From IMG/VR virus record IMGVR_UViG_3300043436_001324, positions 1 through 30,761 of that record: 30,761 nt of DNA. The stretch is one strand, 5' to 3'. This DNA comes from a virus. Positions within the stretch are counted from its first letter, which is position 1. Every line of letters starts with the position of its first letter. Shown in pieces: positions 476 to 28,708 of the stretch. The notes below the pieces were generated by a model. That model had not been told where the DNA came from and ran no database searches. It worked only from the letters and a program-made list of their open reading frames with translations. The position numbers were made by a program, and so were the translations under genes.

Positions 476-1112
476 AACAAAAGAACTTTGCAAAGATGAC
501 TTAACACGGTTAACAAAGGCAATCGGTTACATCATTCGCGTTTATTACGGACTGAACGTTGACAACCTTGATGCCGATTTGATTCGGGTAACTATCCAAA
601 CAATCATGCAACGTCATCCGAGCCTAACTTTTGAAGAATTGAATTTAAGCTATTCTGAGCGCACGATTGAAAAGCGTCAAGGTGTTTCCCTTACACGTGA
701 CGAGATAATGCAACCAATCGAAGATATGACACGTAAAAAGGGATTAATACTTTCAATCTCGGAACAAGAAAAGCGAAAGTTTGAGCAAAAGGAATCCGAG
801 CAACAAGAAAAGCAACGATTCAAAGAGGAAAGTTATGCGCTGTACATCGACTGCCTAAACAACAAAAAAGAGTGGAGCGGTACACCGTTTCAGGCTGCAT
901 CATTTGCAGATAATTTCAAGGAACTTTTTACACGTGAGGAAAAGGATAAACTGTGGGGTGAATGCCAATTACAAGCCGAACGAATGAGAATTGAAGCAGC
1001 GAACGTAATAGATGCAACACTACCAATATCCGCACGGCATTTGTTTTGCGATGAGATTATTCGTAGAGCATTGAAAAGAGGATTGGATGGGTATTACCTT
1101 ATCAAAGACTAA
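327..1112 (+). CDS. phage protein of unknown function next to replication initiator
   Basis: A 261-residue protein with no domain I can name. The middle (about residues 140-170) is rich in Glu, Lys and Gln and is probably helical or coiled coil. The N-terminal 100 residues look globular, and the C-terminus contains a HLFCDEIIRRALKRG stretch. The ATG at 327 lies inside the initiator gene, giving a 149-nt overlap in a different frame. The next in-frame ATG would remove the whole globular N-terminus, so I keep 327, but an alternative start (GTG/TTG) nearer 475 is possible. It sits between the initiator and recT, so a replication or recombination role such as helicase loading is a guess from context only. 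It ends just before the recT promoter. Confidence 0.72.
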   Translation: MELQHNQEGHLTIKSTTLQQEFLESIQNKVQALPAAGTVSKKLIGACLNETKELCKDDLTRLTKAIGYIIRVYYGLNVDNLDADLIRVTIQTIMQRHPSLTFEELNLSYSERTIEKRQGVSLTRDEIMQPIEDMTRKKGLILSISEQEKRKFEQKESEQQEKQRFKEESYALYIDCLNNKKEWSGTPFQAASFADNFKELFTREEKDKLWGECQLQAERMRIEAANVIDATLPISARHLFCDEIIRRALKRGLDGYYLIKD

Positions 1113-1180
1113 CCACTCATCCGACATATTAACCGTTCATCACAATATAGAGCCATGAACGTAGGAAATGAGTAAATTTG
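1112..1180 (+). promoter_or_regulatory. activator-type promoter of recT-exo (tandem ACC repeats plus TAnnTTTG)
   Basis: ACCACTCATC at 1112-1121 and ACCGTTCATC at 1132-1141 form a direct repeat with a 20-nt period. Exactly 31 nt after the second copy lies TAAATTTG (1173-1180), a perfect Bacteroidota -7 box. No TTG is present 17-20 nt upstream of the box. The same arrangement occurs at 24208-24276 and 28640-28708. It starts 22 nt upstream of the recT ATG. Read as an activator-dependent promoter; the activator is unknown. Confidence 0.75.
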
Positions 1181-1202
1181 AGGAAATAAAAAACAAATAA
1201 CT

Positions 1203-2024
1203 ATGAATCAAAATCAAATTACAGTTAAGCAATTCTTCGCAAAAGATGCTGTTAAGAGCAAGTTTGAAGAACTGCTTGGTAAAAAAGCAAACGGTTTCGT
1301 TACGTCCGTTCTGCAAGTCGTAAACAACAACAACTTATTACAGAAAGCAACTCCAGAAAGCGTGTACAATTGTGCAGCGGTTGCAGCTACTTTGGATTTG
1401 CCTATCAACAATTCATTAGGCTTTGCGTGGATAGTACCATACGGAGGACAGGCGCAGTTTCAAATTGGGTGGAAAGGGTTGGTACAACTTGCAAATCGCA
1501 CAGGACAGTACAAGGCTATTAACGTCGTGGAAGTATACGAAAATCAATTCAAGTCGTTCAACCGATTGACTGAGGAATTGGATGCAGACTTCACACAAGA
1601 ACCGAGTTGTAAAATCGTTGGCTACGTTGCATATTTCAAACTATTGAACGGCTTTGAAAAGACTTCGTATTGGTCAGTTGCTGATGTTGAAAAACACGCT
1701 AAACGATTCAGTAAAACTTACGGAGGCGGTGTTTGGAAAAGTGACTTCGATGCAATGGCAAAAAAGACAGTGCTTAAAAACACACTTTCAAAGTGGGGTA
1801 TTCTATCAATCGAGATGCAGACGGCAACAATTGCAGATCAAGCGGTGATTAAAGATGCCGAAACATTGGACGTTGAATACATCGATGCAAGTGAGCCGAA
1901 TGCAGAACAGTTGCCAACAATTACGGATGAACAAGTAGCTGCATTAATCGAACAAGGCGCAACGCTTACACAGATTCAAACTACGTACACGGTAACGGAT
2001 GAGCAACTAATTAAATTTGGATAA
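1203..2024 (+). CDS. recT: RecT-family single-strand annealing protein
   Basis: A 273-residue protein that anneals complementary single strands during phage recombination, working with the exonuclease encoded next. The RecT signature is clear: LPINNSLGFAWIVPYGG followed by FQIGWKGLVQLA (about residues 66-96), and a later KKTVLKNTLSKWG segment near residue 190-203. The C-terminal 50 residues are acidic and variable, as usual for the family and the likely partner-binding tail. The ATG at 1203 follows a long A-rich leader with no clear Shine-Dalgarno, which is normal in this phylum. The stop overlaps the leader of the exonuclease gene, so the two form an operon. It is read from the tandem-repeat promoter at 1112-1180. 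Confidence 0.95.
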   Translation: MNQNQITVKQFFAKDAVKSKFEELLGKKANGFVTSVLQVVNNNNLLQKATPESVYNCAAVAATLDLPINNSLGFAWIVPYGGQAQFQIGWKGLVQLANRTGQYKAINVVEVYENQFKSFNRLTEELDADFTQEPSCKIVGYVAYFKLLNGFEKTSYWSVADVEKHAKRFSKTYGGGVWKSDFDAMAKKTVLKNTLSKWGILSIEMQTATIADQAVIKDAETLDVEYIDASEPNAEQLPTITDEQVAALIEQGATLTQIQTTYTVTDEQLIKFG

Positions 2025-2025
2025 G

Positions 2026-2883
2026 ATGACACACAACACAGATATCAAAGGTGCGGACGTAATGTTTCGCACCTACAACTTTGGAGATTTGATGGGTTCG
2101 TTGACAAAGAACAGCCTAACGGAAAAGCAAGAGATAATGCTTCGCGATTACATGACCAAAATTAAACTGACCGAAAACCAAGCAAAGGAGCGAGATAGGC
2201 TAATCGAAAAACGTGATGCACTACCCGAACTATCTGACACGGCAAAAACTCTTGTAAAGCAGTATTTTAATAGCGAGGTTCGTGGCACTTCAAAAATGCA
2301 CCTATCGAATAAGTACGTTGAAAAAGGGAAGCAGCTTGAGAATATGGCTTTGGCGCGTATCGCAAAGGTGAACGGTTGGAATGCACCTTTGAACGCTAAC
2401 AAGTTAGGCATTGAATTGAATGACCAATACGGATACGGTCATCCCGATGCAATCTACACAAACGCACGTTTTGGATTCGATTCGAAATGCAGTTTTTCAG
2501 ATGACACGTTTCCGCTATTCGCAAAGGATTTGAAAGAGGCAGCGAAATCTTCATTCAACCGCTACGAATGGCAATCAAAAAGATACGCAATGATGGCGGG
2601 GTTTGATCATTGGTATGTATGTTTTTCGCTTGAAAACACACCTGAACAGCTGATTGTTAATGAAGCGTGGAAACTTTGGAAGGAAAGCGGTAACGAAGGG
2701 CAACCCGATGAATCATTCATTGAACAAGTACGTGAGATGCACAACTTCGACCATTTACCCGATTGGGCGCGAGTTAAGACATTCCGAGTTGACCTTACCG
2801 AATCCGACATCGAAAAGGTAAAAGAACACGTTACACTCGCGCGGAATTACTTTGATGAGTTGATGAGTGGGTATGTGAGCTAA
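2026..2883 (+). CDS. PD-(D/E)XK exonuclease, RecT partner (YqaJ/RecE-like)
   Basis: A 285-residue nuclease expected to chew one strand of double-stranded DNA ends and hand the single strand to RecT. Visible active-site elements of the RecB/lambda-exo fold: E105 in KGKQLE, D141 in GHPD, the D-x-K pair in FDSK (D152, K154), and a QxxxY motif at Q183-Y187. The first 90 residues are a less conserved helical region. I start at the ATG at 2026, one base after the recT stop. A TTG at 2017 in the same frame would overlap recT and is less likely. It is the second gene of the recT operon. The stop codon TAA forms part of the GCTAAC that begins the inverted-repeat region downstream. Confidence 0.9.
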   Translation: MTHNTDIKGADVMFRTYNFGDLMGSLTKNSLTEKQEIMLRDYMTKIKLTENQAKERDRLIEKRDALPELSDTAKTLVKQYFNSEVRGTSKMHLSNKYVEKGKQLENMALARIAKVNGWNAPLNANKLGIELNDQYGYGHPDAIYTNARFGFDSKCSFSDDTFPLFAKDLKEAAKSSFNRYEWQSKRYAMMAGFDHWYVCFSLENTPEQLIVNEAWKLWKESGNEGQPDESFIEQVREMHNFDHLPDWARVKTFRVDLTESDIEKVKEHVTLARNYFDELMSGYVS

Positions 2884-3179
2884 CGTATTGCAAATAGGCT
2901 TAGTTTTTAGGCGAGTAGATAATGAAAAATTAGAATTATGCAAACACTTGTAAAAATAGAAGATAAAAAATGGGGATTTACTTTTAGGACATTTTATGGA
3001 AGATGGCAAAAAAGAAAAGCTGAAAAACTTATTGAACTATTGGCAAAAGATGGTATTAAGGCTGAAATATTAGCCTAAAAATTGAGCCTATTTGCTGTTA
3101 TAGCCACCTCGAATGTGTACGTAATTGGCTATAACAGTCGTGCAGGCGGTCGTTTTAATTCCGCTTGCGCTTTGTTAGC
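2879..3179. repeat. nested inverted-repeat region, possible MITE-like or structured element
   Basis: This stretch is built from inverted repeats. A 23-bp pair (2890-2912 and 3073-3095) matches at 21 of 23 positions and flanks a 46-codon ORF. Next is a perfect 11-bp hairpin, CTGTTATAGCC at 3095-3105 with GGCTATAACAG at 3127-3137. A third pair, GCAGGCGG/CCGCTTGC, lies around 3142-3168. The outer ends carry GCTAAC (2879-2884) and GTTAGC (3174-3179). It resembles intergenic palindromic elements of Bacteroidota chromosomes. Whether it moves or only folds is unknown. Confidence 0.6.
2938..3078 (+). CDS. small hypothetical protein inside inverted-repeat region
   Basis: ATG to TAA, 46 residues, beginning MQTLVKIEDKKWGF and ending KDGIKAEILA. 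The protein is basic, with a central GRWQKRKAEKLIELLAKDG helix that looks like real coding sequence (amphipathic, Lys/Leu rich). No family is recognised. Its stop codon lies inside the right arm of a 23-bp inverted repeat whose left arm is at 2890-2912, so the ORF travels with the repeat element rather than with the neighbouring phage genes. It could also be a chance ORF. Confidence 0.45.
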   Translation: MQTLVKIEDKKWGFTFRTFYGRWQKRKAEKLIELLAKDGIKAEILA

Positions 3180-3210
3180 GGAAAAATCGAATGCAAGTTT
3201 TTAGATTGAG

Positions 3211-3245
3211 AAAAGCCTCACTTCAAAAGTGGGGTTTTGTTTTTA
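3211..3245 (+). terminator. Rho-independent terminator after the inverted-repeat region
   Basis: CCTCACTT (3216-3223) pairs with AAGTGGGG (3227-3234), one G-T pair, followed by TTTTGTTTTT. It ends transcription coming from recT-exo. Confidence 0.75.
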
Positions 3246-3263
3246 CAAAAAGTTGTATATTAG
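3236..3263 (+). promoter_or_regulatory. possible promoter of the terminase-region operon
   Basis: TATATTAG (3256-3263) is one base off TAnnTTTG, with TTTG at 3236-3239 sixteen bases upstream, directly after a terminator and 4 nt before the ATG at 3268. The spacer is a little short and the leader would be very short. Confidence 0.45.
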
Positions 3264-3267
3264 CGAC

Positions 3268-3507
3268 ATGATTACAACGATACACGCAATACTTATCGCA
3301 TGGCTTTGGTGTTCTTTTTCACCAATCACTTGGGTTTCTATGAAAATTCAAAGTGATTTTGTGATTGTTCAGCTTGTTATCGACCACATCCAATGCCCGA
3401 AATGCGTTGGGTTTTGGTTGGCACTCGCAATGACAGGAAACATTTACCTCGCAATTACATCAGCAATATGCACACTACTCTTAGTCAAGATGACATCACG
3501 TATGTAG
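3268..3507 (+). CDS. small membrane protein with CPKC motif (DUF1360-like)
   Basis: A 79-residue protein with two or three hydrophobic segments (about residues 5-20, 30-40 and 48-72). A CPKCVGFW motif lies at residues 43-50, just before the last membrane segment. This Cys-x-x-Cys-x-GFW arrangement is what I know from DUF1360-like small phage membrane proteins; their function is not known to me. The ATG at 3268 follows a probable promoter by a few bases; the frame is open further upstream to 3229 but only into the terminator. It overlaps the next gene by 40 nt in another frame. Confidence 0.7.
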   Translation: MITTIHAILIAWLWCSFSPITWVSMKIQSDFVIVQLVIDHIQCPKCVGFWLALAMTGNIYLAITSAICTLLLVKMTSRM

Positions 3508-3680
3508 AGGGGGTTCAAAACCTCCGTGACCTTGTCAAGTACGGCTCAACTGTCAACCGTAGATTGGTCGACATTTACCAACGTTACACGGGCGAAGTCA
3601 TCGAGCAAAAATCGTGTTGTTCATCCGAGCGCAAAATATTCTTCAATCAATTCATGGAATGGTACAACTCTATAACATAG
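3468..3680 (+). CDS. small hypothetical phage protein
   Basis: A 70-residue soluble protein from the ATG at 3468. Its second half contains LVDIYQRYTGEVIEQKSCCSSERKI, written here in part, and ends in FNQFMEWYNS. The double Cys and basic stretch are notable, but no domain is recognised. It overlaps the upstream membrane protein gene by 40 nt and the downstream gene by 22 nt, so the three are translated from one message. The frame is open upstream to 3393, but that would double the overlap, so the later ATG is preferred. Confidence 0.65.
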   Translation: MHTTLSQDDITYVEGVQNLRDLVKYGSTVNRRLVDIYQRYTGEVIEQKSCCSSERKIFFNQFMEWYNSIT

Positions 3681-4144
3681 TAATTGAATCGAAGTATTCC
3701 GAGTTGGAAAAGTACGCTCATTTCATTAACGATGTGAGCAACAAGGGTCGCAATGTTTTGACCGCAATATCCAACGCATACATCCACGCTCAGAAACACA
3801 CTCCGAAAACTGAAGACGAAGCGAAAGCAATTCTTTTGCATTACATCAAATGTGAATTACTCTACACCCAAACTGCCACACACAAAGAGAATATTACTGC
3901 TATCGATTTTGAATCACTACACCAAGCAATTGACGAGCCAAAGGAACATATCGACTTTCATTACATTATAGAAAGGGAGGTCAAAGAATGGAATTTTATA
4001 GATCGGAAATTCTTTGAAAAGTGGATGGAGTTTAAAAAGCAAGGCAAAAAGGATTACGAACTTGCTGAATTGTACGGAATAGACAAGACCTATTGCCGTA
4101 AAAAGTTGCAACAATTAAAACGCAGAATAAGATGCAAAATCTAA
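3659..4144 (+). CDS. helix-turn-helix phage protein before terminase
   Basis: A 161-residue protein from the ATG at 3659 (the frame is open from 3614). The C-terminus (about residues 120-160) has the look of a helix-turn-helix: ELAELYGIDKTYCRKKLQQL followed by a basic RRIRCK tail, similar to sigma region 4 or a terminase small-subunit DNA-binding domain. The N-terminal 100 residues are helical, with no motif I can name. It sits two genes upstream of the small terminase. Options are a late-gene regulator with a sigma-like DNA-binding domain or an accessory packaging protein; I lean to the regulator, weakly. It overlaps the next gene by 13 nt. Confidence 0.7.
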   Translation: MVQLYNIVIESKYSELEKYAHFINDVSNKGRNVLTAISNAYIHAQKHTPKTEDEAKAILLHYIKCELLYTQTATHKENITAIDFESLHQAIDEPKEHIDFHYIIEREVKEWNFIDRKFFEKWMEFKKQGKKDYELAELYGIDKTYCRKKLQQLKRRIRCKI

Positions 4145-4401
4145 AAATCAAAGCCGAGTTAGCGGGAAAGACTATCACCAAAGATTTGGGATGGACACGG
4201 CTAACACTTAAAATCGACAACATCAAACCCGCGCAATACGGGCGATTATTTCAAATGGGATTCACAGAAATTTTTGAAAATGGGGAAGATAAAACCAATA
4301 CATCCAACGAGGAAACTGAAAACAGCGGAGGAACTACTCCAGATGTGGGAGGAACACAAACAGTGGCGAAAAAACCAAGGAAGAAGCGTTCCAACTCTTA
4401 A
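4132..4401 (+). CDS. small hypothetical protein upstream of terminase small subunit
   Basis: An 89-residue protein. The first 48 residues look folded and end in GRLFQMGFTEIFE; the rest is a Ser/Thr/Asn/Gly-rich tail closing with a basic KKPRKKRSNS end that could bind nucleic acid. The last 122 nt are also read in another frame as the start of the terminase small subunit gene, so the low-complexity tail here may be the price of dual coding. It belongs to the packaging operon. No function is recognised. Confidence 0.65.
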   Translation: MQNLKIKAELAGKTITKDLGWTRLTLKIDNIKPAQYGRLFQMGFTEIFENGEDKTNTSNEETENSGGTTPDVGGTQTVAKKPRKKRSNS

Positions 4402-4714
4402 CCAAAAAACGGGGGAGGTAATCTACATGGTGCATTACCCCCCTCTTACACTTGATGCGTTCATCATTTGGACTGTCAATCAGAAAGGTTGGGGAGTGGG
4501 AACGATGGACAATTACATCGAAAATAAGGATGGGTTGTATGATGATTTCGGGGGAATAGTCACACACATGAGAAAAGAGGCGAAACAAGACCGTTTCGAT
4601 GGTGCTGCAGTTGGTCAGTTCAAAGAGGGGTTAATTTCCCGTTTTGATGGATACACAGACAGACAAGAACACACTATCCAACAAGAACCTCGAATTTTTA
4701 AATTGGATGATTAA
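4280..4714 (+). CDS. terS: terminase small subunit
   Basis: A 144-residue DNA-recognition subunit of the packaging motor. It has the pattern I associate with small terminases of Bacteroidota phages: an AEELLQMWEEHKQWRKN start, then LTLDAFIIWT, an SYW-like DNYIENKDGLYDDF block, and a C-terminal AAVGQFKEGLISRFDG segment. Position immediately before the large subunit (stop and start overlap by one base at 4714) supports this. I start at the ATG at 4280; a TTG two codons earlier is possible. The first 122 nt overlap the previous gene, and the conserved EELLQ motif lies inside that overlap, so a later start is unlikely. Confidence 0.85.
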   Translation: MGKIKPIHPTRKLKTAEELLQMWEEHKQWRKNQGRSVPTLNQKTGEVIYMVHYPPLTLDAFIIWTVNQKGWGVGTMDNYIENKDGLYDDFGGIVTHMRKEAKQDRFDGAAVGQFKEGLISRFDGYTDRQEHTIQQEPRIFKLDD

Positions 4715-5895
4715 TGCCATTCCAATTAACAACAGCCGTTAAAAAGATGCTCCGAATGACTGGAAACAAAAAGGTCATTCAGGGTAGTACATCGTCAGGT
4801 AAGACATACGGCATTATTCCGATTTTATACGATAAAGCACTGAGTAAGCCACGCACCAAAATCACGGTCGTGGCTGAAACGTTACCCGCTTTGAAAGATG
4901 GGTGTATTGACATCTTCAAAAACTTCATGATGGACGAAGGGCGGTGGAACGATGCGCAGTGGAATGGAACGGATATGGTATACAAGGCTCTCAACGGGTC
5001 AACAATGCAATTCAAATCGTTCGATTCCGTAGGTAAAGCCAAAGCAGCGGGAAAGCGTGACATTCTTTTTCTGAATGAGGCGAATCATATCGACTACGGT
5101 ATAGCGGATGCGCTTATTATTCGTTCTAATGAAGTGTGGATGGACTTCAACGCAGATATGGAATTTTGGGCGCACACGGAAATACTTACCCAACCCGATT
5201 CTGAGTTTTTAAAATTGACATACTTGGACAATGAGGGTATTCCCGATGCCGTTTTAAATAACCTCATGCAACGTAAAGCAAAAGCCGAGGCAGAAGAGCG
5301 TAACGGAACGAAAGGATATTGGTGGAATTGGTGGCAAGTATACGGACTTGGCGAGGTTGGTATGCTTCAAGAGGCGGTTTATCCACGGTGGGAGATACTA
5401 AGCGAAAGACCTGAACGATTCACACGCTTTGTCTATGGGTTAGACTTCGGTTTTCAGCACCCTACCGCACTTGTGAAAGTTTGGTTTTGGGAGGATGAAC
5501 TGTTCATAGAGGAAGTCATCTACAAATCGGGGTTGACATCTAACGCACTCATTGAGGAAATGCGCAAAAAAGAGGTTTCACGTGAGGTCGAAATCATGTG
5601 CGACTACGCACGTCCCGAAATGATTGAGGATTTGGATAACGCAGGGTTTTACGTTTTGAAAGCGGATAAGAGCGTGGATGCGGGAATCAACTTCCTCAAT
5701 CAAATGAAAGTCTATGTACACGCAGATTCAATCAATATCCAACGTGAAAACAGACTATACAAGCGCAAGGTCATGAACGGCATTATATCGGAGCAAATCG
5801 ACAAAAAGAACGATGATGCAATGGATGCTGCGAGATATGCGGCTATGGAAATCAAGTCAGCTTTCTACGGTGGCTCGGCATACGAATCATTTTAA
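4714..5895 (+). CDS. terL: terminase large subunit
   Basis: A 393-residue ATPase and nuclease that drives DNA into the prohead and cuts it. Walker A is GSTSSGKT (residues 24-31); Walker B is DILFLNEAN (116-124) with the catalytic Glu at 122. The RNase H-like nuclease follows, with D244 in GLDFGFQHP, D297 in MCDYARPE, and the closing D-rich DDAMDAARYA (about 367-376). All key residues are present, and the length is normal for the short PBSX/Terminase_3-like class. ATG overlaps the small-subunit stop by one base. Unusually, tail genes rather than portal follow it. Confidence 0.96.
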   Translation: MPFQLTTAVKKMLRMTGNKKVIQGSTSSGKTYGIIPILYDKALSKPRTKITVVAETLPALKDGCIDIFKNFMMDEGRWNDAQWNGTDMVYKALNGSTMQFKSFDSVGKAKAAGKRDILFLNEANHIDYGIADALIIRSNEVWMDFNADMEFWAHTEILTQPDSEFLKLTYLDNEGIPDAVLNNLMQRKAKAEAEERNGTKGYWWNWWQVYGLGEVGMLQEAVYPRWEILSERPERFTRFVYGLDFGFQHPTALVKVWFWEDELFIEEVIYKSGLTSNALIEEMRKKEVSREVEIMCDYARPEMIEDLDNAGFYVLKADKSVDAGINFLNQMKVYVHADSINIQRENRLYKRKVMNGIISEQIDKKNDDAMDAARYAAMEIKSAFYGGSAYESF

Positions 5896-5897
5896 CA

Positions 5898-13003: not shown

Positions 13004-13025
13004 AAAAAGGGAGTTCATATCTCCC
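13004..13025 (-). terminator. terminator of the minus-strand gene pair
   Basis: GGGAG and CTCCC pair across ttcatat, with an A-tract on the plus-strand side (13004-13008) that reads as a T-run on the minus strand. It lies between convergent genes and suits the minus-strand direction best; plus-strand readthrough may be only partly stopped. Confidence 0.6.
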
Positions 13026-13717
13026 TATTCATTTATAAGTTTTTTCATTGATGCCAAGTTAAGAGCGTATATCACGGGGAAGTTTAGCACTTGTTCAACG
13101 TCTGTTAGCTTGTTATCAGCGAGCCAATATACGAAAATCTCCCAAGTGTATTGCGCAACTTGTTTTTCTTTTTCGATTTCCTTTTCTAAGTCACGTATTT
13201 CAGACTCACTTAACCCATCCGTTTCAACCGGTTCGGGTTCGTCAATAGAGAATATAGTCTTATAGGTCGAATGTATTGACTCACGGAATTTGAGGTACTC
13301 ATTTACCCCACCAACTACATCGTCAATGTCAGCATCTTCATAATGCTTTGCCCGCTTATCAATGTCGAAGTTCACTGGCTCATATTCCCAATGACCCCAT
13401 TCGTTTTGTCTTTTTTTACGGTGCAATATTGCGCACACCTTTCCAAAGTTGTCAGGGTTTTGCAAGTACCTTTCTAAGTCGATGAAGTTGCCAAGCGTTA
13501 ACACACTATTGGGTACAACGTCTTTTGGCTTGTAGTTCTTGTTCAGAATCTTATTAAGGTCAAGCAGATGTTTGTTCAACTCAGATACGGTCATGTTTTC
13601 GACTTCATCCGTGTCAACATCTAAGTAAACAGAAACGAGTTCAACATTTCTGTCAAACTCGCTTTCAAAATCTGCTTTCTTGATTTTATTTATCTGAATC
13701 AGATCGTTGACTTTCAT
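13025..13717 (-). CDS. tail assembly chaperone-like protein, second of pair
   Basis: A 230-residue acidic protein. The order of elements resembles proteins encoded before tape measure genes in Bacteroidota phages: TLGNFIDLERYLQNPDN, a KVCAILHRKK block, EPVNFDIDKRAKHYEDA, and DVVGGVNEYLKF. Those proteins occupy the tail assembly chaperone position. The ATG at 13717 lies inside the upstream gene (32-nt overlap) and has GAGGTGAAAG just before it, one of the few good Shine-Dalgarno sequences here, so it is translated by coupling rather than by a needed frameshift. One of only two minus-strand genes. Function inferred. Confidence 0.65.
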   Translation of the reverse strand: MKVNDLIQINKIKKADFESEFDRNVELVSVYLDVDTDEVENMTVSELNKHLLDLNKILNKNYKPKDVVPNSVLTLGNFIDLERYLQNPDNFGKVCAILHRKKRQNEWGHWEYEPVNFDIDKRAKHYEDADIDDVVGGVNEYLKFRESIHSTYKTIFSIDEPEPVETDGLSESEIRDLEKEIEKEKQVAQYTWEIFVYWLADNKLTDVEQVLNFPVIYALNLASMKKLINE

Positions 13718-14234
13718 CTTTCACCTCTTTCATTAGAACGTTCGCACTATTGGTTAAGTATTCCATAATTTTAGCAACGGCAACCACAAAGTTAGCAGCG
13801 GGTAAATCTTTCAATTTGGAAATCTTGTGTTTAATATGCGCTTTGTCAAAATGTTCTGCATCCGTTAACTTTTCATCTTGGTAAAAGAAAGCAATCAGTG
13901 CGAGTGTAGGGTTGCCGATGTCATGCAGTTTGTCAATCATTTTACCCATTTTAACTGTGAACACACGTGACAAATCAATTCTGTAACCGTTCACCTCTTC
14001 GACAAGCTCTAAATTCTCACCACTTGAATCCATTGCATCGAATAACTCCGTGCTAAATGATAACGGTACATTGTCAATCTCTTTGTCTGGAACACCGATG
14101 GCTTTTAAAACCGCTTCAAATTGTAGCAAAGGCTCTTTTTCAAAAATGCGCACGGCATCACTCACATCTACCCACTGTTGCAACGTCATGTCATGAATCG
14201 TTGTAGGGTACTCTTTTTCATTTATTGTAATCAT
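13686..14234 (-). CDS. tail assembly chaperone-like protein, first of pair
   Basis: A 182-residue protein from the ATG at 14234; the frame is open to 14273 but the extra residues would cover the promoter. It opens with MITINEKEYPTTIHDMTLQQ, a start typical of small phage chaperone-like proteins in which a short beta hairpin is followed by helices. The C-terminus is helical and charged. It overlaps the next gene by 32 nt in the +1 (equally -2) frame. In many phages a chaperone gene and its frameshift extension lie in this order, so the pair may be functionally alike; I see no slippery sequence and the second gene has its own ribosome site. Confidence 0.6.
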   Translation of the reverse strand: MITINEKEYPTTIHDMTLQQWVDVSDAVRIFEKEPLLQFEAVLKAIGVPDKEIDNVPLSFSTELFDAMDSSGENLELVEEVNGYRIDLSRVFTVKMGKMIDKLHDIGNPTLALIAFFYQDEKLTDAEHFDKAHIKHKISKLKDLPAANFVVAVAKIMEYLTNSANVLMKEVKDESQRSDSDK

Positions 14235-14250
14235 ATCTAATTCGTTTGTG

Positions 14251-14258
14251 CGAATATA
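14251..14258 (-). promoter_or_regulatory. possible -7 box for minus-strand gene pair
   Basis: On the minus strand TATATTCG (one base off TAnnTTTG) lies 16 nt before the ATG at 14234. No good TTG is found at the expected upstream distance. A CCACT/AGTGG hairpin (14270-14284) lies between it and the divergent plus-strand gene. Confidence 0.4.
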
Positions 14259-14287
14259 AGCAAAAATATCCACTTTTTCAGTGGCTT

Positions 14288-19017: not shown

Positions 19018-19023
19018 TAACAT

Positions 19024-22474: not shown

Positions 22475-22504
22475 TTGCAGATATAAAAAGTTTGTGTACC
22501 TTTG
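22475..22504 (+). promoter_or_regulatory. strong consensus promoter
   Basis: TTG at 22475-22477, a 19-nt spacer, and a perfect TAnnTTTG box, TACCTTTG (22497-22504), 24 nt before the ATG at 22529. The best housekeeping-type promoter in the genome, driving the small early gene cluster; no ACC repeats are present. Confidence 0.8.
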
Positions 22505-23157: not shown

Positions 23158-23369
23158 GTAAAATAATAGATTGGTTAGTTGGCGAACTTGGTATCGAATA
23201 TAGCGAGCGTAACAATAAATCAATTAATGATGCTAAAATAATGGATATGCTACTACAAAAAGAAATTTGGGATTCGGCACACCAAGCAGGAAGATTTGAG
23301 GGTAAGGGTATTGCAGATGATAATTGGCAAACATTCGAAGATTGGTATAATGAAAATGTAAAGCGATGA
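23154..23369 (+). CDS. small phage protein, first of three related genes
   Basis: A 71-residue acidic protein. The framework IIDWLVGELGI, then KEIWDSAHQAGRFEGKG, then FEDWYNENVK matches the layout I know from short proteins in Flavobacterium phages: an N-terminal VEWL-like helix, a central helix with Ala and Gly, and a final YYNET. Two genes downstream share this layout loosely. Function unknown. ATGA overlaps on both sides. Confidence 0.65.
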   Translation: MSKIIDWLVGELGIEYSERNNKSINDAKIMDMLLQKEIWDSAHQAGRFEGKGIADDNWQTFEDWYNENVKR

Positions 23370-23629
23370 AAAGGGTAACAACATCAGAATTATTTAGAGA
23401 AAAATTTTATGCTTATGGAAATTTAAAAGCAGACGGCACTAGATCTCTTACGGAAGAAGATTTAAATGAAATAATTGAATTGTGTTATGAGAAAGAAAAA
23501 GAAAATCTAACACACGCTTTTAATATAGGTTTTATTGAGGCACTTGACTTCACAAAATGCATAGATAGCGATCAGTTTTTTCATGGGACAAATGATCCAG
23601 AAGATTTTTTAATCGAATATTATTTTTAA
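23366..23629 (+). CDS. small phage protein, second of three related genes
   Basis: An 87-residue protein: TSELFREKFYAYG at the start, a central EIIELCYEKEKENLTHAFNI helix, and a Phe/Asp-rich end. It shares with the next gene the opening (LF/LRD-x-FYxYxx) and the Ala-x-x-x-Gly pattern of the middle helix, so I think they are divergent copies. It lacks the YYNET end. Function unknown. Confidence 0.6.
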   Translation: MKRVTTSELFREKFYAYGNLKADGTRSLTEEDLNEIIELCYEKEKENLTHAFNIGFIEALDFTKCIDSDQFFHGTNDPEDFLIEYYF

Positions 23630-23630
23630 T

Positions 23631-23906
23631 ATGAAACAACAAACGGCAGTAGAAAAATTAAGAGATGCTTTTTATAGTTATGCCACACAGGATGTGCGTA
23701 GTGTTGATAATAGCATGTGGATTATAGACGAGTGTATTTTTGGTGAGCTTATAGATGCGGCTCAAGGGGTCATGAAAAAACAAATCATTGATGCTTGGTA
23801 TTGTGGTCATACAGATGGAGCTACTATTTGCAGTCAAAAAGAAGACTTACCAGCAGAAAAATACTACAACGAAACTTATACATATGGGAAGAAAGAAACT
23901 GAATAA
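23631..23906 (+). CDS. small phage protein, third of three related genes
   Basis: A 91-residue protein: TAVEKLRDAFYSY, a central MKKQIIDAWYCGHTDGAT block and an EKYYNETYTYG end. This is the best match of the three to the VEWL...YYNETY family common in Flavobacterium phages, whose function I do not know. It starts one base after the preceding stop; its 3' end overlaps the next small ORF by 23 nt. Confidence 0.65.
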   Translation: MKQQTAVEKLRDAFYSYATQDVRSVDNSMWIIDECIFGELIDAAQGVMKKQIIDAWYCGHTDGATICSQKEDLPAEKYYNETYTYGKKETE

Positions 23907-23994
23907 CGCGGTTTTATACATGCGTGTTCCTAGCGATATGCTAGAAGATTTAAAAGAATTGCTAAAGGCAGAAATTAAAAAGCAAAAGAAATAG
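23884..23994 (+). CDS. 36-residue basic protein, possible ribbon-helix-helix fragment
   Basis: From the ATG at 23884: basic start, then AVLYMRVPSDMLEDLKELLK and a Lys-rich end. A beta strand of alternating residues followed by a helix is the first half of a ribbon-helix-helix DNA-binding domain (Arc/MetJ class), though 36 residues is short for it. It overlaps the upstream gene by 23 nt. Either a very small repressor, a remnant, or a chance ORF. Confidence 0.45.
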   Translation: MGRKKLNNAVLYMRVPSDMLEDLKELLKAEIKKQKK

Positions 23995-24041
23995 TTTTAA
24001 TTCGTATATTCGCTCAAGTTTTTGTTCATAGTTAGGTTTTG

Positions 24042-24070
24042 GCGCATCTTTCGGGGTGCGCTTTTTTATT
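24042..24070 (+). terminator. terminator upstream of the tRNA gene
   Basis: GCGCATC (24042-24048) pairs with GGTGCGC (24055-24061), then TTTTTTATTTT. Ends the 22529-23994 cluster. Confidence 0.8.
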
Positions 24071-24084
24071 TTAAAAACTATTTG

Positions 24085-24092
24085 TATATTTG
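24085..24092 (+). promoter_or_regulatory. perfect -7 box abutting the tRNA gene
   Basis: TATATTTG matches TAnnTTTG exactly and ends 3 nt before the mature 5' end of the tRNA. No TTG lies 17-20 nt upstream. Confidence 0.6.
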
Positions 24093-24095
24093 CTA

Positions 24096-24168
24096 CGTGA
24101 GGTGGAGCGGTTGGCAGCTCGTTTGGCTCATAACCAAAAGGTCGCAGGTTCGAGTCCTGCCCTCGCAA
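24096..24168 (+). tRNA. tRNA-Met (CAU), initiator-like
   Basis: All arms fold: acceptor 24096-24102 with 24161-24167, D stem GAGC/GCTC, anticodon stem TTTGG/CCAAA around loop CTCATAA with anticodon CAT, and T stem GCAGG/CCTGC around TTCGAGT. The first pair is C1 against A72, unpaired, and position 11-24 is A-U: both are marks of bacterial initiator tRNA. The body (GGAGC, GCTCG, AGGTC) also follows the initiator pattern. It differs in having only two G-C pairs next to the anticodon loop (T29-A41 in place of G29-C41) and G at position 14 where A is nearly universal. The 3' CCA is not encoded (A73 then CAA). Flanked by terminators on both sides. Confidence 0.92.
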
Positions 24169-24174
24169 CAAACT

Positions 24175-24204
24175 AAGCGGAGGATACTGTTCTCCGCTTT
24201 TTTA
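24175..24204 (+). terminator. terminator after the tRNA
   Basis: Perfect 8-bp stem AAGCGGAG (24175-24182) with CTCCGCTT (24192-24199), then TTTT. Confidence 0.88.
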
Positions 24205-24207
24205 TTT

Positions 24208-24276
24208 ACCACTCATCAAGTTTATTTACCGCTCATCACATTAACGGAAATCGGATGACTTTATTAAGTACGTTTG
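24208..24276 (+). promoter_or_regulatory. activator-type promoter of the endolysin operon
   Basis: ACCACTCATC (24208-24217) and ACCGCTCATC (24228-24237) form a 20-nt direct repeat; the whole units TTTATTTACC-plus-site at 24201 and 24221 are nearly identical. TACGTTTG (24269-24276), a perfect -7 box, begins after a gap of exactly 31 nt. No TTG at the -33 position. Same design as at 1112-1180. Confidence 0.78.
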
Positions 24277-24299
24277 TCATGTAATCAAAACGAAAAATT

Positions 24300-24512
24300 A
24301 TGAACACAACAATCACAAATCAAAACATTAAGAGAGGTAACGGATATGGTCAATATATCGTTACAGGAATAGTTAACGGAGTTGATGTAATCACTCACAC
24401 AACGAATAGCGAAGCGTTCGATTGGTTCGATGATGACTCAAACGATGAGAAACACATTGATGCAATATGCTACGTTGACAGTCTACTTGTTAGCACATAC
24501 GAAAACCTTTAA
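24300..24512 (+). CDS. small hypothetical protein at the head of the endolysin operon
   Basis: A 70-residue acidic protein; the middle has GYGQYIVTGIVNGVDVITH (beta hairpin-like) and an Asp-rich FDDDSNDEKH, followed by a helix. This looks like a short DUF seen often in Bacteroidota phages, without known function. First gene behind the tandem-repeat promoter; ATG after an A-rich leader. Confidence 0.62.
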   Translation: MNTTITNQNIKRGNGYGQYIVTGIVNGVDVITHTTNSEAFDWFDDDSNDEKHIDAICYVDSLLVSTYENL

Positions 24513-24523
24513 ACATTAACAAA

Positions 24524-24634
24524 ATGGAAGTAGCATTATTAGCATTCGGAATGATTGCGCTAATTACCCTTGCGAGGGCGATTAAGTCACTTGACAGAAA
24601 AGAGGATGAATTAACCAAACGATTTGAGGAATGA
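24524..24634 (+). CDS. 36-residue single-span membrane peptide
   Basis: From the ATG at 24524: a hydrophobic N-terminal segment of about 17 residues (EVALLAFGMIALITLARA) and then a charged tail with LDRKEDELTKRFEE. Its stop overlaps the next ATG (ATGA). Placed between a small gene and the endolysin operon, so it could be a tiny holin-like or regulatory membrane peptide. Translation is supported by the precise ATGA coupling, not by homology. Confidence 0.5.
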   Translation: MEVALLAFGMIALITLARAIKSLDRKEDELTKRFEE

Positions 24635-24945
24635 GAAAAAGAAAGGAAGTTAGGACAATGTTAGGGTTCAAATCGTTAAAGGACCTATTAACCGAAAAGA
24701 AACCATTTGCGGTGGTTCAACACTTTGTAGGTGCAAAATTCGACGATGAAAGGGATAAGGTATTTGAATCAATTTGGTATTGCGATAAACGTGGACTATT
24801 AACTCGGGAACTATGCCACAAAGAGGTACAGTATCTATTCAGTAACTTGCATCTATTCCGAAAGGTCATTGAGGGCAAAGATGGCACGGTGTACGAATAT
24901 CAATACTTTGAAGACTACTATCGCGCAAAATGCTTAAATTCGTAA
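24631..24945 (+). CDS. hypothetical phage protein upstream of endolysin
   Basis: A 104-residue soluble protein: basic start, KSLKDLLTEKKPFAVVQHF, then a charged helix, a VQYLFSNLHLFRK block and a Tyr-rich end (YEYQYFEDYYRA). Unknown function. The ATG at 24631 overlaps the preceding stop; an internal ATG at 24658 would remove 9 basic residues. The endolysin starts 10 nt after its stop. Confidence 0.65.
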   Translation: MRKRKEVRTMLGFKSLKDLLTEKKPFAVVQHFVGAKFDDERDKVFESIWYCDKRGLLTRELCHKEVQYLFSNLHLFRKVIEGKDGTVYEYQYFEDYYRAKCLNS

Positions 24946-24955
24946 ATAAAAAGAT

Positions 24956-25441
24956 ATGACAATTAAAGAAATAGCAGAAAGCTACATTGGACAAAAAGAG
25001 AAACGTGGGAACATGGGGTTCATCGATGAAGCATTTGACAAGAAAATGCGAGGGGTAGGCTTTTATGATGGTGCGCCTTGGTGCGGATTTTTCGCCATGT
25101 TAGTTTGGAAAGAGGCGGGTGAAAACATTAGCCTGTTAAGCGCATCTTCAAGACGTATAATCGAGAAAGCAACGAAAGCACGTAATTGGCATTCAGAACC
25201 CAAAGAGGGTGCGGTCGTTGTTTGGGCGACTTTCAGATCGGGCAAAAGACAAACGACAGGACATATCGGAGTTGTTACCGCTGTCGATGGAATGACCTAC
25301 ACAACGGTTGAGGGGAATACAACGGAGCGAGGTGGTAGAGATGGCGTAATAGTTGCACAACGTCACAGGGTGTTAAGTAAAGAGGCTTGGAAAACTACGA
25401 ACGGACTACGTCTTATGGGCTACGTCTACCCGGAACAATAG
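24956..25441 (+). CDS. CHAP-domain endolysin
   Basis: A 161-residue cysteine amidase/peptidase that cuts cell-wall peptides at the end of infection. CHAP signature: Cys43 in PWCGFFAMLVWKEAG, His103 in GHIGVVTAV, and an acidic/Asn pair in VEGN (119-121). No signal peptide, so it needs a holin for release. No separate wall-binding domain: single-domain enzymes are normal for Gram-negative hosts. The opening TIKEIAESYIGQKEKRGN is also seen in phage amidases of Bacteroidota. Last gene of its operon; strong terminator follows. Confidence 0.9.
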   Translation: MTIKEIAESYIGQKEKRGNMGFIDEAFDKKMRGVGFYDGAPWCGFFAMLVWKEAGENISLLSASSRRIIEKATKARNWHSEPKEGAVVVWATFRSGKRQTTGHIGVVTAVDGMTYTTVEGNTTERGGRDGVIVAQRHRVLSKEAWKTTNGLRLMGYVYPEQ

Positions 25442-25461
25442 GACTTTAACCACTACTACGG

Positions 25462-25500
25462 ATAGGAAGTTTCACCGCTTCCTATTTTTTTTTATTTTTT
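25462..25500 (+). terminator. terminator after endolysin
   Basis: Perfect stem ATAGGAAG (25462-25469) with CTTCCTAT (25478-25485), followed by a long T-run. Confidence 0.88.
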
Positions 25501-25514
25501 TTTTTGATGAATTG

Positions 25515-25544
25515 TTGTATATAACAAAAATATAACTACATTTG
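25515..25544 (+). promoter_or_regulatory. consensus promoter of the small-gene train
   Basis: TTG at 25515-25517, 19-nt spacer, perfect TACATTTG box at 25537-25544, 24 nt before the ATG at 25568. No ACC repeats. It should drive 25568 through at least 28657. Confidence 0.78.
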
Positions 25545-25567
25545 TTGAAACGAAAACACAAAACAAC

Positions 25568-26011
25568 ATGAACAAATTTGACGAAACATTGGACAAAGCT
25601 ATTAAGCAACTTAACGCACTCACTTCTTACGAGGGTGTTATCGAGGAAATCTACGAAGGCGGTAGACAGCCGAAACGAGTAACTGAAATCTATTGCAACA
25701 CCGCAGAATTTCACTACGAAATTGAAATCATCACAGGCAAACTTATTCAAGTAACAGGAAATGTAAAGTACGATTCAGATGGCTTGTATTGCGATATTGA
25801 CCAAATTCTCAAAGAAGATGGATTTGGCGACTACTTAGAGTTGCCTGACCACCTTTTAGAAACAGTGCGCACAATGATTCACAACCGAGTTGAGGGAAAG
25901 GTAGGTGACGAATTGGAAGAGGACTTCTTAGAGCATCAAAGCGAGTCACAAGATTGTTGGTTTGAGCGTGGGTGTGACATTTACCACGCATGCAGAGAAA
26001 ACGGAATATAA
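25568..26011 (+). CDS. hypothetical acidic phage protein
   Basis: A 147-residue acidic protein. Segments: helical start DETLDKAIKQLNALTSYEGV, a beta-rich middle with EIYCNTAEFHYEIEII, and a C-terminal part with four Cys in all. No domain is recognised. It is the first gene of the train and the only one with a full consensus promoter at hand. Confidence 0.65.
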   Translation: MNKFDETLDKAIKQLNALTSYEGVIEEIYEGGRQPKRVTEIYCNTAEFHYEIEIITGKLIQVTGNVKYDSDGLYCDIDQILKEDGFGDYLELPDHLLETVRTMIHNRVEGKVGDELEEDFLEHQSESQDCWFERGCDIYHACRENGI

Positions 26012-26028
26012 ACTAAAACACAAACAGA

Positions 26029-26184
26029 ATGAAAACTTATCACATTTGTTGGCTCATTGGAAAGGATGAGCAAGGCTTAGACCTTTTAACAGGAATAACA
26101 GTATTTGCCGAATCAATGGATGAAGCGTTAGCCGACTTCAAAAAAGAGTACAATGTTGAACCTTATTACATCACACGAAAATGA
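26029..26184 (+). CDS. 51-residue hypothetical protein
   Basis: From the ATG at 26029: MKTYHICWLIGKDEQG, then FAESMDEALADFKKEY and an aromatic YYITRK end. A strand-helix-strand layout; similar short proteins with a MDEALADF-like helix occur in phages, function unknown. Its stop overlaps the next start (ATGA), good evidence that it is translated. Confidence 0.6.
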   Translation: MKTYHICWLIGKDEQGLDLLTGITVFAESMDEALADFKKEYNVEPYYITRK

Positions 26185-26441
26185 GAACTGAAAAAGAACT
26201 ATGGGAACTTGTATTAAACAGAACAGGTTGGTTTGAGTTTGGGCTATGCCGTTGGGTTTATAATCTTATGTATTACGATGCGATAACATATGAGGAGCGC
26301 TTACTTTTAAAGTGTGTTTTAGATAAGCATTTACCAGAACCAAAATTTCCTTCGGTTTATTGTTGGACAATTAACGACATACAACCCCGCATTAATTGGA
26401 TTAACAAACGAATTAAACAATTAGAAGATGGAAATACTTAA
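26181..26441 (+). CDS. small Trp-rich hypothetical protein
   Basis: An 86-residue protein with six Trp: a WELVLNRTGWFEFGLCRWVY start, a helix with YEERLLLKCVLDKHLPEP and a C-terminal basic helix (WINKRIKQLED). Unknown family. Overlaps both neighbours (ATGA at 26181; 14 nt at 26428). Confidence 0.62.
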   Translation: MRTEKELWELVLNRTGWFEFGLCRWVYNLMYYDAITYEERLLLKCVLDKHLPEPKFPSVYCWTINDIQPRINWINKRIKQLEDGNT

Positions 26442-26643
26442 AAAACTTGGTGTAATTCAAGAGGTTTCAAATGAGGGTAGAAACCCGAAACTTGGTAGAG
26501 GATTTTCTACCGCAAGAAGATTTAACAAATGGCATCCTTTGAGCTACATTATAATACCTATGGTTTGGATAACTGTATTTATTGTAGATGGGATTACAGG
26601 TATTAAACAATCAAACCCAAAAAACCCTTTTAAATGGGATTAA
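26428..26643 (+). CDS. small single-span membrane protein
   Basis: A 71-residue protein with a basic N-terminal half and one hydrophobic segment at about residues 39-54 (YIIIPMVWITVFIVDG). The C-terminus is short and hydrophilic. Unknown function; inner membrane location expected. Overlaps the upstream gene by 14 nt. Confidence 0.6.
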   Translation: MEILKKLGVIQEVSNEGRNPKLGRGFSTARRFNKWHPLSYIIIPMVWITVFIVDGITGIKQSNPKNPFKWD

Positions 26644-26666
26644 CGAACGGATTAAACAGATTGAAA

Positions 26667-26873
26667 ATGAAACGATTTAAACAACTCATCTACCTCTTCG
26701 CACTTATCGGTGCGTGCGGGATGTTCTATGTAGCAGGACACAATAACGGATATGATTTAGGATTTGATTCAGGTGTTCAAACGATGCGCGACAGCATCAT
26801 CTATGAGAACCTAATACCCGAATCCTTACACGATGTTGAACGATTAATTGAGAAGCGAAATGAAAGCAAATGA
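26667..26873 (+). CDS. small N-terminally anchored protein
   Basis: A 68-residue protein from the ATG at 26667: MKRFKQLIYLFALIGACGMF is a basic start plus hydrophobic segment, either a membrane anchor or, given the Cys at about 17, possibly a lipoprotein-like signal. The rest is soluble (YDLGFDSGVQTMRDS). An upstream ATG at 26634 would add 11 residues and overlap the previous gene; the basic start at 26667 suits a membrane protein better. Confidence 0.6.
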   Translation: MKRFKQLIYLFALIGACGMFYVAGHNNGYDLGFDSGVQTMRDSIIYENLIPESLHDVERLIEKRNESK

Positions 26874-27273
26874 ATTAAGAATTGGGAATTGGGTTTATAT
26901 ACCACAAGCAAAAACAAATGAACAGATTGGTGTCATTGAAGAAAATGGGAGGTTTTTAACAAAAGGGTATAAAACATCATATTCTTCTATTGAATGTTTA
27001 AGACCAATCCCACTCACAGAAGAATGGTTGTTGCGGTTTGGGTTTAGAAAAAAGGCTTCTTTTTCAGACCATACCATACACATTGATATGACAAACATTC
27101 TTTGTCTAGATAATGACAATAATGAAAGTGAATTTTCAGCGGTGTCAATATACGATGTAGATGAAGGAGTGTGGATTTACTTAGAAAGTATTCAGTATGT
27201 ACACCAACTACAAAACCTTTATTTTGTACTAAGTAGAGAAGAACTAAAACTGAAAGACGATGAGAACAATTGA
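26860..27273 (+). CDS. conserved Bacteroidota phage protein (ELRIGN...PLTEEWLLRFGF family)
   Basis: A 137-residue protein of a family I know to be widespread in Bacteroidota phages and prophages but without known function. Conserved blocks: KANELRIGNWVY at the start, IPLTEEWLLRFGF in the middle (about 50-62), and YVHQLQNLYFVL near the end (about 113-124), followed by an EELKL. The first block forms a small beta barrel-like start. It overlaps its upstream neighbour by 14 nt and the downstream one by 14 nt. A TTG at 26848 is possible but the ATG keeps the family start. Confidence 0.8.
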   Translation: MKANELRIGNWVYIPQAKTNEQIGVIEENGRFLTKGYKTSYSSIECLRPIPLTEEWLLRFGFRKKASFSDHTIHIDMTNILCLDNDNNESEFSAVSIYDVDEGVWIYLESIQYVHQLQNLYFVLSREELKLKDDENN

Positions 27274-27496
27274 CAAACTAAACGCAATGCGAAACATAAA
27301 ACCAACGGTGTTTTCTCCGAATTGGTTGAGCGAATACACGAAAGTAAAGTACATACCAAAAAACGGTGTGGGAACGAATAAGAATGTTTCAACTGATCTG
27401 TTCGATGAGATTATCAAAATCGAAATGAAACAAGATGTAGTTCATTGTGTTGGACTTCGTGGCAAAAAGCAAACCATTTTAATACTAAGCAAATGA
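27260..27496 (+). CDS. small basic hypothetical protein
   Basis: A 78-residue basic protein starting MRTIDKLNAMRNIKPTVFSP. The second half is hydrophobic and beta-like (VVHCVGLRGKKQTILIL). Unknown. Overlaps 14 nt with upstream and 4 nt with downstream genes. Confidence 0.58.
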   Translation: MRTIDKLNAMRNIKPTVFSPNWLSEYTKVKYIPKNGVGTNKNVSTDLFDEIIKIEMKQDVVHCVGLRGKKQTILILSK

Positions 27497-27774
27497 AAAA
27501 AGAACTACTGAACAACGAAAAAATTGTTTTAATAGCAAAAGAGTTTATGAAATCATATTTTGCAGATGGAAAAGAAAAAACACCATCAGATTTTGACCAA
27601 GATATATTAGGAGGTGTTGACATTGATATTATGTTTGGACATCCTCCAAAATGGAATAGAACACCTTTTTTTGATGCGTTAACCGAATTAGTAGAAGATG
27701 GAGAGGTGAAATTTAAGGTGAACGATAATGGAGCTTGTATTTATTGGATGGAATCAAAAGAAAAATCAATATGA
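27493..27774 (+). CDS. hypothetical protein beginning MKKELL
   Basis: A 93-residue protein: MKKELLNNEKIVLIAKEFMK start, a DFDQDILGGVDIDIMFGH middle, then FFDALTELVEDGEVKF and a Trp-containing end. The last part resembles a winged-helix wing (VEDGEVKFKVNDNGACIYW), so a DNA-binding role is possible but weak. Its first 18 bases are identical to those of the next gene. ATGA overlaps on both sides. Confidence 0.6.
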   Translation: MKKELLNNEKIVLIAKEFMKSYFADGKEKTPSDFDQDILGGVDIDIMFGHPPKWNRTPFFDALTELVEDGEVKFKVNDNGACIYWMESKEKSI

Positions 27775-27980
27775 AAAAAGAACTACTGCGCGAGTTCATG
27801 CGGTTGCTGAATGACAATAATACAAACCTAAAAGACTTTTGCGAGAAACACGACATGAACTACAACACCGTGTACCAAAAGTTATCACGGTACAATATTA
27901 ATATTGACGAGATGAATGAGTTGATTGGCTTGGTAGACGAAAACAAACGGCTAAAAATTATAATATGCAGGGGAGAATAA
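27771..27980 (+). CDS. small helix-turn-helix-like protein A
   Basis: A 69-residue protein from the ATG at 27771 (frame open to 27735). LKDFCEKHDMNYNTVYQKLS looks like a helix-turn-helix, as in small Cro-like or Mor-like regulators. The next gene has the same layout. The C-terminus has a second helix and a basic end. Candidate regulator; no family named. Overlaps by 4 and 16 nt. Confidence 0.6.
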   Translation: MKKELLREFMRLLNDNNTNLKDFCEKHDMNYNTVYQKLSRYNINIDEMNELIGLVDENKRLKIIICRGE

Positions 27981-28225
27981 CAGACGAATCACTAAAACGT
28001 AGGGTAAGGAACTACCTACTTGTAATGCTGTCACGTAAGGGTATTGATTTTGAGGAATTGTGCCGAGTGCATAACGAGGATTACAATAACTTTTACTCAC
28101 GTGCAATGAATCAAAGTGGAATTGACTTAGAACACATTAATTACGTGCTGAAATTGGCAAACTACACGCATCGAGTTGACTTCATTAATGGTGACTTTTG
28201 CGAGGTGTACAAATCAAAACTATGA
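27965..28225 (+). CDS. small helix-turn-helix-like protein B
   Basis: An 86-residue protein: basic start (LKRRVRNYLLVML), then DFEELCRVHNEDYNNFYSRA, which lines up with the helix-turn-helix-like part of the previous gene, and an IDLEHINYVLKLANYTHRVD helix that lines up with its IDEMNELIGLV. A diverged tandem copy of protein A is the likeliest explanation. ATGA overlap with the next gene. Confidence 0.6.
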   Translation: MQGRITDESLKRRVRNYLLVMLSRKGIDFEELCRVHNEDYNNFYSRAMNQSGIDLEHINYVLKLANYTHRVDFINGDFCEVYKSKL

Positions 28226-28404
28226 TAATCGAAATCATTAGCGATGTGTACTACGTCTTTGACTTTCCAATGATGGACGTACTGTGCGAGGACAAAGGAA
28301 AGCGATTTGAAGCTACTATTTGCTGTCATCACATTGACATTGTAAAGAATGCTACACTCCCTTTCTCGCTTGAAAATGTCGATTATCAATTAAAACTATT
28401 TTGA
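28222..28404 (+). CDS. 60-residue hypothetical protein
   Basis: From the ATG at 28222 (the frame is open to 28198): MIIEIISDVYYVFDFPMMD, a Cys-His-rich middle with ATICCHHIDIV and a short end. Beta-rich. Unknown. Four-base overlap with the upstream gene, and one base before the next. Confidence 0.55.
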   Translation: MIIEIISDVYYVFDFPMMDVLCEDKGKRFEATICCHHIDIVKNATLPFSLENVDYQLKLF

Positions 28405-28405
28405 A

Positions 28406-28657
28406 ATGACAAACAACGGTAAACTACTCGCAGCCGTGGCACTTGCTCCAGTGGTTGCTGACTTCTTAGAAGATGCAGAACTTCGCTTTGAAGCAAAGAA
28501 ACGAGCAAACAGAATCATTGCGGAAATACGTTCATTCGACGAATGGATTTTGAAAGGAACGGAATCACAAGTTCATGAGCAACAAGTGAACATTCAAAGA
28601 GCGTTTAGGCAGTGGCTAAATGAAAACTTCACAGAACAAACCGATGAAAAGGAATAA
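28406..28657 (+). CDS. small helical hypothetical protein
   Basis: An 83-residue protein. The start has a hydrophobic stretch (LLAAVALAPVVADFL), too short and too interrupted for a sure membrane span, then charged helices: RFEAKKRANRIIAEI, and QVHEQQVNIQRAFRQWLN. Last gene of the small-gene train; its 3' end runs into the tandem-repeat promoter of the methyltransferase. Confidence 0.62.
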   Translation: MTNNGKLLAAVALAPVVADFLEDAELRFEAKKRANRIIAEIRSFDEWILKGTESQVHEQQVNIQRAFRQWLNENFTEQTDEKE

Positions 28658-28708
28658 CAACCGTTCATCACATTTAACAACCAGTAACAAAACGATACAC
28701 TAACTTTG
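28640..28708 (+). promoter_or_regulatory. activator-type promoter of methyltransferase-RusA
   Basis: ACCGTTCATC at 28660-28669 lies exactly 31 nt before a perfect -7 box TAACTTTG (28701-28708). A degenerate copy, ACCGATGAAA, lies 20 nt upstream (28640-28649), inside the previous gene. No TTG at -33. Same design and spacing as at 1112 and 24208. The box overlaps a TTG that could be taken for an upstream start of the methyltransferase. Confidence 0.72.

Follow-up and report, generated by a model that had tools for sequence, protein, structure and literature searches.

Which regulator switches on the three promoters that share a tandem repeat in the virus record IMGVR_UViG_3300043436_001324, analysed here over its whole length of 30,761 bp (the window)? 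Each of these promoters, designated P1, P2 and P3, combines a 10-bp site, ACCRYTCATC, repeated with a 20-nt period, with a -7 box of the type TAnnTTTG, which is the -7 box of flavobacterial sigma-A (PMC9723704). The favoured answer, to which we assign a probability of roughly 78%, is that P1–P3 would depend on a LytTR-type response regulator of the host, and that phages of Saprospiraceae-like bacteria would thereby have placed core operons under host control. A preliminary description of the window had placed the three elements at 1112-1180, 24208-24276 and 28640-28708, and sequence search of the window finds all of them there, on the plus strand:

1112..1121, plus strand: upstream site of P1, ACCACTCATC
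1132..1146, plus strand: downstream site of P1, ACCGTTCATC, with the extension ACAAT, which is conserved across phages
1173..1180, plus strand: -7 box of P1, TAAATTTG, 31 nt past site 2, with no TTG at -33
24208..24217, plus strand: upstream site of P2, ACCACTCATC
24228..24242, plus strand: downstream site of P2, ACCGCTCATC, with the extension ACATT
24269..24276, plus strand: -7 box of P2, TACGTTTG, 31 nt past site 2
28640..28649, plus strand: degenerate upstream half-site of P3, ACCGATGAAA, a 6/10 match within the coding sequence 28406-28657
28660..28674, plus strand: downstream site of P3, ACCGTTCATC, with the extension ACATT
28701..28708, plus strand: -7 box of P3, TAACTTTG, 31 nt past site 2

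The site pattern ACCNNTCATC occurs five times in the window, each time within P1–P3, against an expectation of 0.72, and five copies were reached in 0 of 100 shuffles. The -7 box pattern TANNTTTG alone is found at chance frequency (36 vs 35.5 expected), so it is the constant arrangement of sites and box that is significant. When both sites, the ACAWT extension and the -7 box are scored jointly, with a maximum of 31, P1 and P2 reach 31 and P3 reaches 27, while the next best position in the window scores 20 and 40 shuffles peak at 22. P1–P3 are real promoters and the sole ones of their kind in the window. The lower score of P3 is due to its poor first half-site, ACCGATGAAA. The first copy of the repeat claimed for P3, lying inside the upstream gene, is unconvincing, and P3 is best called a single-site promoter. 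Two further details of the preliminary description need adjustment: the 10-bp site holds as a core, but the second site is longer and reads ACCRYTCATC plus ACAWT, and the 31-nt distance to the box is true of P1–P3 but is not a fixed value, as relatives show 31 or 32. The leaders from the -7 box to the ATG are short (18–23 nt), and the methyltransferase gene behind P3 starts with the ATG at 28727 and not with the TTG at 28706. Between their site 2 and -7 box, most recT promoters of the clade contain a sequence similar to an inverted half-site, CATGAACGT (1154-1162 in the window).

Independent evidence for a host regulator comes from bacterial chromosomes. A search of 84,980 bacterial and archaeal genomes for the pair and box with relaxed spacing yielded six matching contigs, all from Saprospiraceae and with a spacing of 32 in every one; the exact 31-nt pattern has no match in the genomes searched because the two elements are 32 nt apart in the host copies. 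There is exactly one pair per genome in all six, and every one of these pairs precedes the same gene, encoding a secreted alpha/beta-hydrolase. Behind the hydrolase, three of these stretches (L177, L179 and L181) continue with a LytS-type histidine kinase (PF06580) and then a response regulator with a LytTR domain, the other three being cut or arranged so as to hide these genes. Among 298 Saprospiraceae genomes, 14 pairs were found, of which eight precede the hydrolase operon, two adjoin other LytTR genes and four look unrelated; within 395 genomes of the class, the pair is present in the query genome only.

A footprint comparison over the 30 best-scoring hydrolase homologues in Saprospiraceae shows the tandem site 82–156 nt upstream of the hydrolase at all 21 loci that have the kinase and the regulator and at none of the six that lack them (21/21 vs 0/6), and 20 of the 21 score above all 200 shuffles. 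Three loci, L226, L229 and L252, were excluded from this count since the contig or the gene order hid the full pair of genes; all three carry the site, and L252 has no kinase or regulator directly behind the hydrolase. The extension ACAATT is common to the phages and many of the host copies. The site thus goes with the LytTR system rather than with the hydrolase, and no other observation argues as strongly that it would be read by a LytTR protein. Whether this would be the regulator of the hydrolase operon or a host LytTR paralogue of the same specificity is a separate matter. The tandem site also adjoins other LytTR genes, lying between two stand-alone LytTR genes in L194 and after a receiver-LytTR gene in L188, as a paralogue would allow. 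However, the site adjoins the hydrolase operon far more often than any other chromosomal locus, and it is there that its footprint is conserved; we regard a paralogue as unlikely.

The same element recurs in other phages. In IMG/VR, the strict 31-nt pattern is present in 11 viral stretches, and the pair and box with the spacing left free between 26 and 40 in 43. Among the distinct viral sequences, the spacing is 32 in 25, 31 in 13 and 36 in one, so that 38 of 39 fall at 31–32, and the recT promoter itself shows 31 or 32 among relatives. A second search, which required only site 2 with ACAAT and the box but not the first site, retrieved 92 viral stretches, which fall into 40 sequence clusters. 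Of these clusters, 29 have a first site that scores 8/10 or better, in all 29 at an offset of exactly 20, and the distance from site to box is 31–33 in 36 of the 40; two clusters with a spacing of 37 lack a first site and resemble chance matches. The logo from 20 clusters reads ACCRYTCATC-N10-ACCRYTCATC-ACAAT-N26/27-TAnnTTTG, the extension of site 2 being ACAAT or ACATT in the phages. The preliminary description had named a lack of enrichment of the motif upstream of the -7 boxes of related phages, or a loss of its spacing there, as grounds for abandoning the idea; both were examined, and neither refuted it. Sites of the host-regulator type are found in phage promoters of several lineages. A blastn search of the promoter against named phages gave weak matches to staphylococcal phages only.

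These distributions also bear on two further explanations. That the likeness arose by chance among ordinary Bacteroidota promoters would agree with the chance frequency of the -7 box alone, but the site counts, the spacing distribution, the offset of exactly 20 and the host specificity lie far beyond chance, and this reading is refuted. Complete or long phages carry about one to seven such promoters, and in G325 seven high-scoring copies lie in the 40 kb scanned. Several copies per genome might be expected of decoys that titrate the host regulator instead of serving as activator sites. A decoy would, however, have no need of a promoter geometry with 31–32 nt to a -7 box, no TTG at -33 and 18–23 nt to the start codon, which makes this function very improbable.

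The -33 position was taken from the TTG of two ordinary promoters of the window, which serve as a comparison:

22475..22504, plus strand: ordinary promoter, TTG-N19-TACCTTTG, repeats absent; the contrast case
25515..25544, plus strand: ordinary promoter, TTG-N19-TACATTTG, repeats absent; precedes the early gene block

Both show TTG-N19-TAnnTTTG and no repeats, exactly as previously described, and the TTG said to be missing from the tandem-site promoters is found at -33 in just one of the 20 phage clusters in the logo.

If a LytTR protein reads the sites, it is probably not encoded by the phage. No LytTR domain was detected with Pfam in any of the 45 motif-bearing phage records, which extends the earlier remark that the phage has no LytTR gene, and the host regulator, used as a query against viral contigs, gave a single weak match (40%, residues 49–119). 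The best structure matches to the host regulator, among the top 60 listed, cover its receiver part only. Likewise, no DNA-binding protein common to all motif-bearing phages was found, many of the records being fragments. The sole candidates in the window for a phage-encoded activator are the following open reading frames (ORFs) with likeness to helix-turn-helix (HTH) proteins, which are confined to the G000 clade:

27771..28225, plus strand: two overlapping small HTH-like ORFs; Mga HTH match with E 0.001, below the cut-off

An activator of the phage's own, such as one of the two small HTH proteins at 27771-28225, would then bind the repeats, and the likeness of the host operon to them would be due to convergence or to capture from phages. 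Phage-encoded middle and late activators are generally common, and both ORFs are part of the early block, immediately upstream of P3. On the other hand, they are limited to the 7–8 records of their clade, while no DNA-binding protein occurs in all motif-bearing phages, of which G007 and G009 share little with the window beyond a distant terminase. Moreover, such an activator would not account for the association of the chromosomal site with a LytTR kinase-regulator operon, and we consider it distinctly improbable. With neither a detectable phage LytTR protein nor a common DNA-binding protein, a host regulator is the better reading. The proposal that these are activator-dependent promoters bound by a host LytTR protein is thus supported by the chromosomal position of the site, its presence at 21/21 vs 0/6 loci, its occurrence in 45 phage records without a detectable LytTR domain and its agreement with the geometry of published LytTR sites.

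The genes behind the three promoters, as identified by profile matches, are the following:

1203..2024, plus strand: RecT-like annealing protein, first gene after P1 (PHROG 148, E 1e-81)
2017..2883, plus strand: exonuclease, second gene after P1 (PHROG 5715, E 1e-31)
24300..25441, plus strand: operon after P2, two small genes and a CHAP endolysin (24956-25441; CHAP E 1.2e-10)
28727..29563, plus strand: DNA methyltransferase (N6_N4_Mtase), first gene after P3 (Pfam E 4.6e-27)
29541..29858, plus strand: RusA-like resolvase after P3 (Pfam E 0.0018, below the Pfam cut-off)

Of the genes originally listed as targets, recT-exo, the endolysin operon and the methyltransferase are recognised behind the promoters; the RusA assignment depends on the sub-threshold match. 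Among relatives, the promoter block is conserved while the downstream gene is swapped. RecT follows it in G000 and others, whereas G004 has an Erf protein and then a protein resembling a YqaJ-type exonuclease, and G003 carries a pentapeptide-repeat-like gene between the promoter and RecT. In other phages, the promoter precedes YqaJ operons, small genes, a Cpn60 (GroEL-like) gene or a terminase-like gene; the chaperonin gene lies in an operon behind the tandem-site promoter of the phage contig L159. RecT relatives at 47–68% identity (L052-L123) lack the tandem pair in the stretches examined, and the element is thus not general to recT promoters.

Directly upstream of the lysis promoter P2, a tRNA-Met gene is followed by a GC-rich hairpin with a T-run that resembles a terminator (24096-24201). 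Just upstream of P3, 28406-28657 encodes an 83-aa protein of unknown function, whose family is present in 16 motif-bearing records and is among the most widespread there for which no structural role is recognised. The otherwise one-directional gene order is broken by two minus-strand ORFs (13025-14273), which are conserved in relatives.

The motif points to Saprospiraceae as the probable host of the phage. A terminase search of the 298 Saprospiraceae genomes returned distant relatives only, the match with the best E-value being 36% identical. Two DNA searches of 20 kb each gave tRNA matches in one and short, mostly low-complexity matches in the other, with no convincing spacer. A terminase-like match in the Saprospiraceae locus L199 (G041:C21:34845-35834) contains 13 in-frame TGA codons, which suggests a TGA-recoded phage.

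Several points weigh against control by a host LytTR regulator. The 298 Saprospiraceae genomes yielded no spacer-like or close prophage match to the phage. The hydrolase homologues behind the footprint were the best-scoring and hence a non-random sample, with regulator genes partly cut by the ends of the loci. A LytTR domain too divergent for Pfam could escape detection, and most of the phage records are fragments. Furthermore, the exact pair is absent from most Saprospiraceae genomes, and the phages may accordingly infect only part of this family or a related group.

Under control by the host regulator, two of its subunits would occupy ACCRYTCATC-N10-ACCRYTCATC(ACAWT), some 43–72 nt upstream of the transcription start, and would recruit sigma-A RNA polymerase to a promoter that retains only the -7 box TAnnTTTG. 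The host would autoregulate its operon of hydrolase, LytS-type kinase and LytTR regulator through the same element, and the recT-exo, methyltransferase-RusA and lysis operons would thereby be tied to the host two-component system, while the early block of the phage would run from an ordinary promoter. We infer binding by the regulator of the hydrolase operon and activation rather than repression, as well as the signal and the timing. A broader and more tentative idea, which we hold to be doubtful, is that several unrelated Saprospiraceae phages independently rely on one narrowly dedicated host two-component system, which on the chromosome acts mainly on its own operon, to sense when recombination, DNA modification and lysis genes are to be expressed. 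This would be a Bacteroidota counterpart of CtrA-type lytic deferment, with a kinase that possibly responds to infection or envelope damage.

If control by the host LytTR regulator is correct, the element defines a class of promoters in phages that infect a large and mostly uncultured family of bacteria, and it provides a sequence tag by which these phages can be tied to a host regulator, an aid to host prediction. It would also add a further response-regulator family to those tapped by phages, CtrA and PhoB, with core recombination and lysis operons as its targets. Together with the host operon, the phage promoters make up a compact system that lends itself to direct testing.

The anatomy of the element agrees with that of known LytTR sites. 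The published 9-bp direct repeats are exemplified by those of BrsR, ACCACTTAT-12 bp-ACCGCTTAT, and in LytTR operons the spacers are 11–13 bp, with a strong bias to a position 10 bp upstream of the -35 (PMC6193735). AgrA repeats have their promoter-proximal copy centred near -60, in promoters with suboptimal spacing (PMC4227749), and the AlgR target is CCGTTCGTC (PMC4064291). For repeats of about 9–11 bp, the phage element offers 10 bp with a 20-nt period, the offset being 20 in all 29 qualifying clusters; 11 bp separate its 9-bp ACCRYTCAT cores, and site 2 ends 9–10 nt before the TTG position at -33. The closest parallels are autoregulated LytTR operons, LRS of Streptococcus mutans and AgrA P2/P3, which also have direct repeats just upstream of the promoter (PMC6193735, PMC4227749), with ACC-type repeats and a spacer of 11–13 bp in LRS (PMC6193735) and suboptimal -35/-10 spacing in the AgrA promoters (PMC4227749). 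Their targets are chromosomal, whereas the present element reproduces this anatomy in phage genomes.

As for the use of host regulators by phages, the CtrA promoters of pili- and flagellotropic phages of Alphaproteobacteria likewise concentrate host response-regulator sites in phage promoter regions and have arisen in several phage lineages (PMC9437464). In those phages, the sites are dense in an intergenic region, and binding and regulation are experimentally established (PMC9437464), whereas the present sites are putative LytTR-type tandem repeats at a fixed distance from a Bacteroidota-type -7 box. Cyanophages similarly place genes under the host two-component regulator PhoBR through copies of its box (PMC10976474 and work cited therein), although the signal there is phosphate stress, while in the present case an uncharacterised signal would act on core operons of recombination, methylation and lysis. 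A literature search found no report joining Saprospiraceae, phage and LytTR. Host response regulators acting at phage promoters are thus already known from CtrA and PhoB, to which this would add a LytTR-based case in Bacteroidota.

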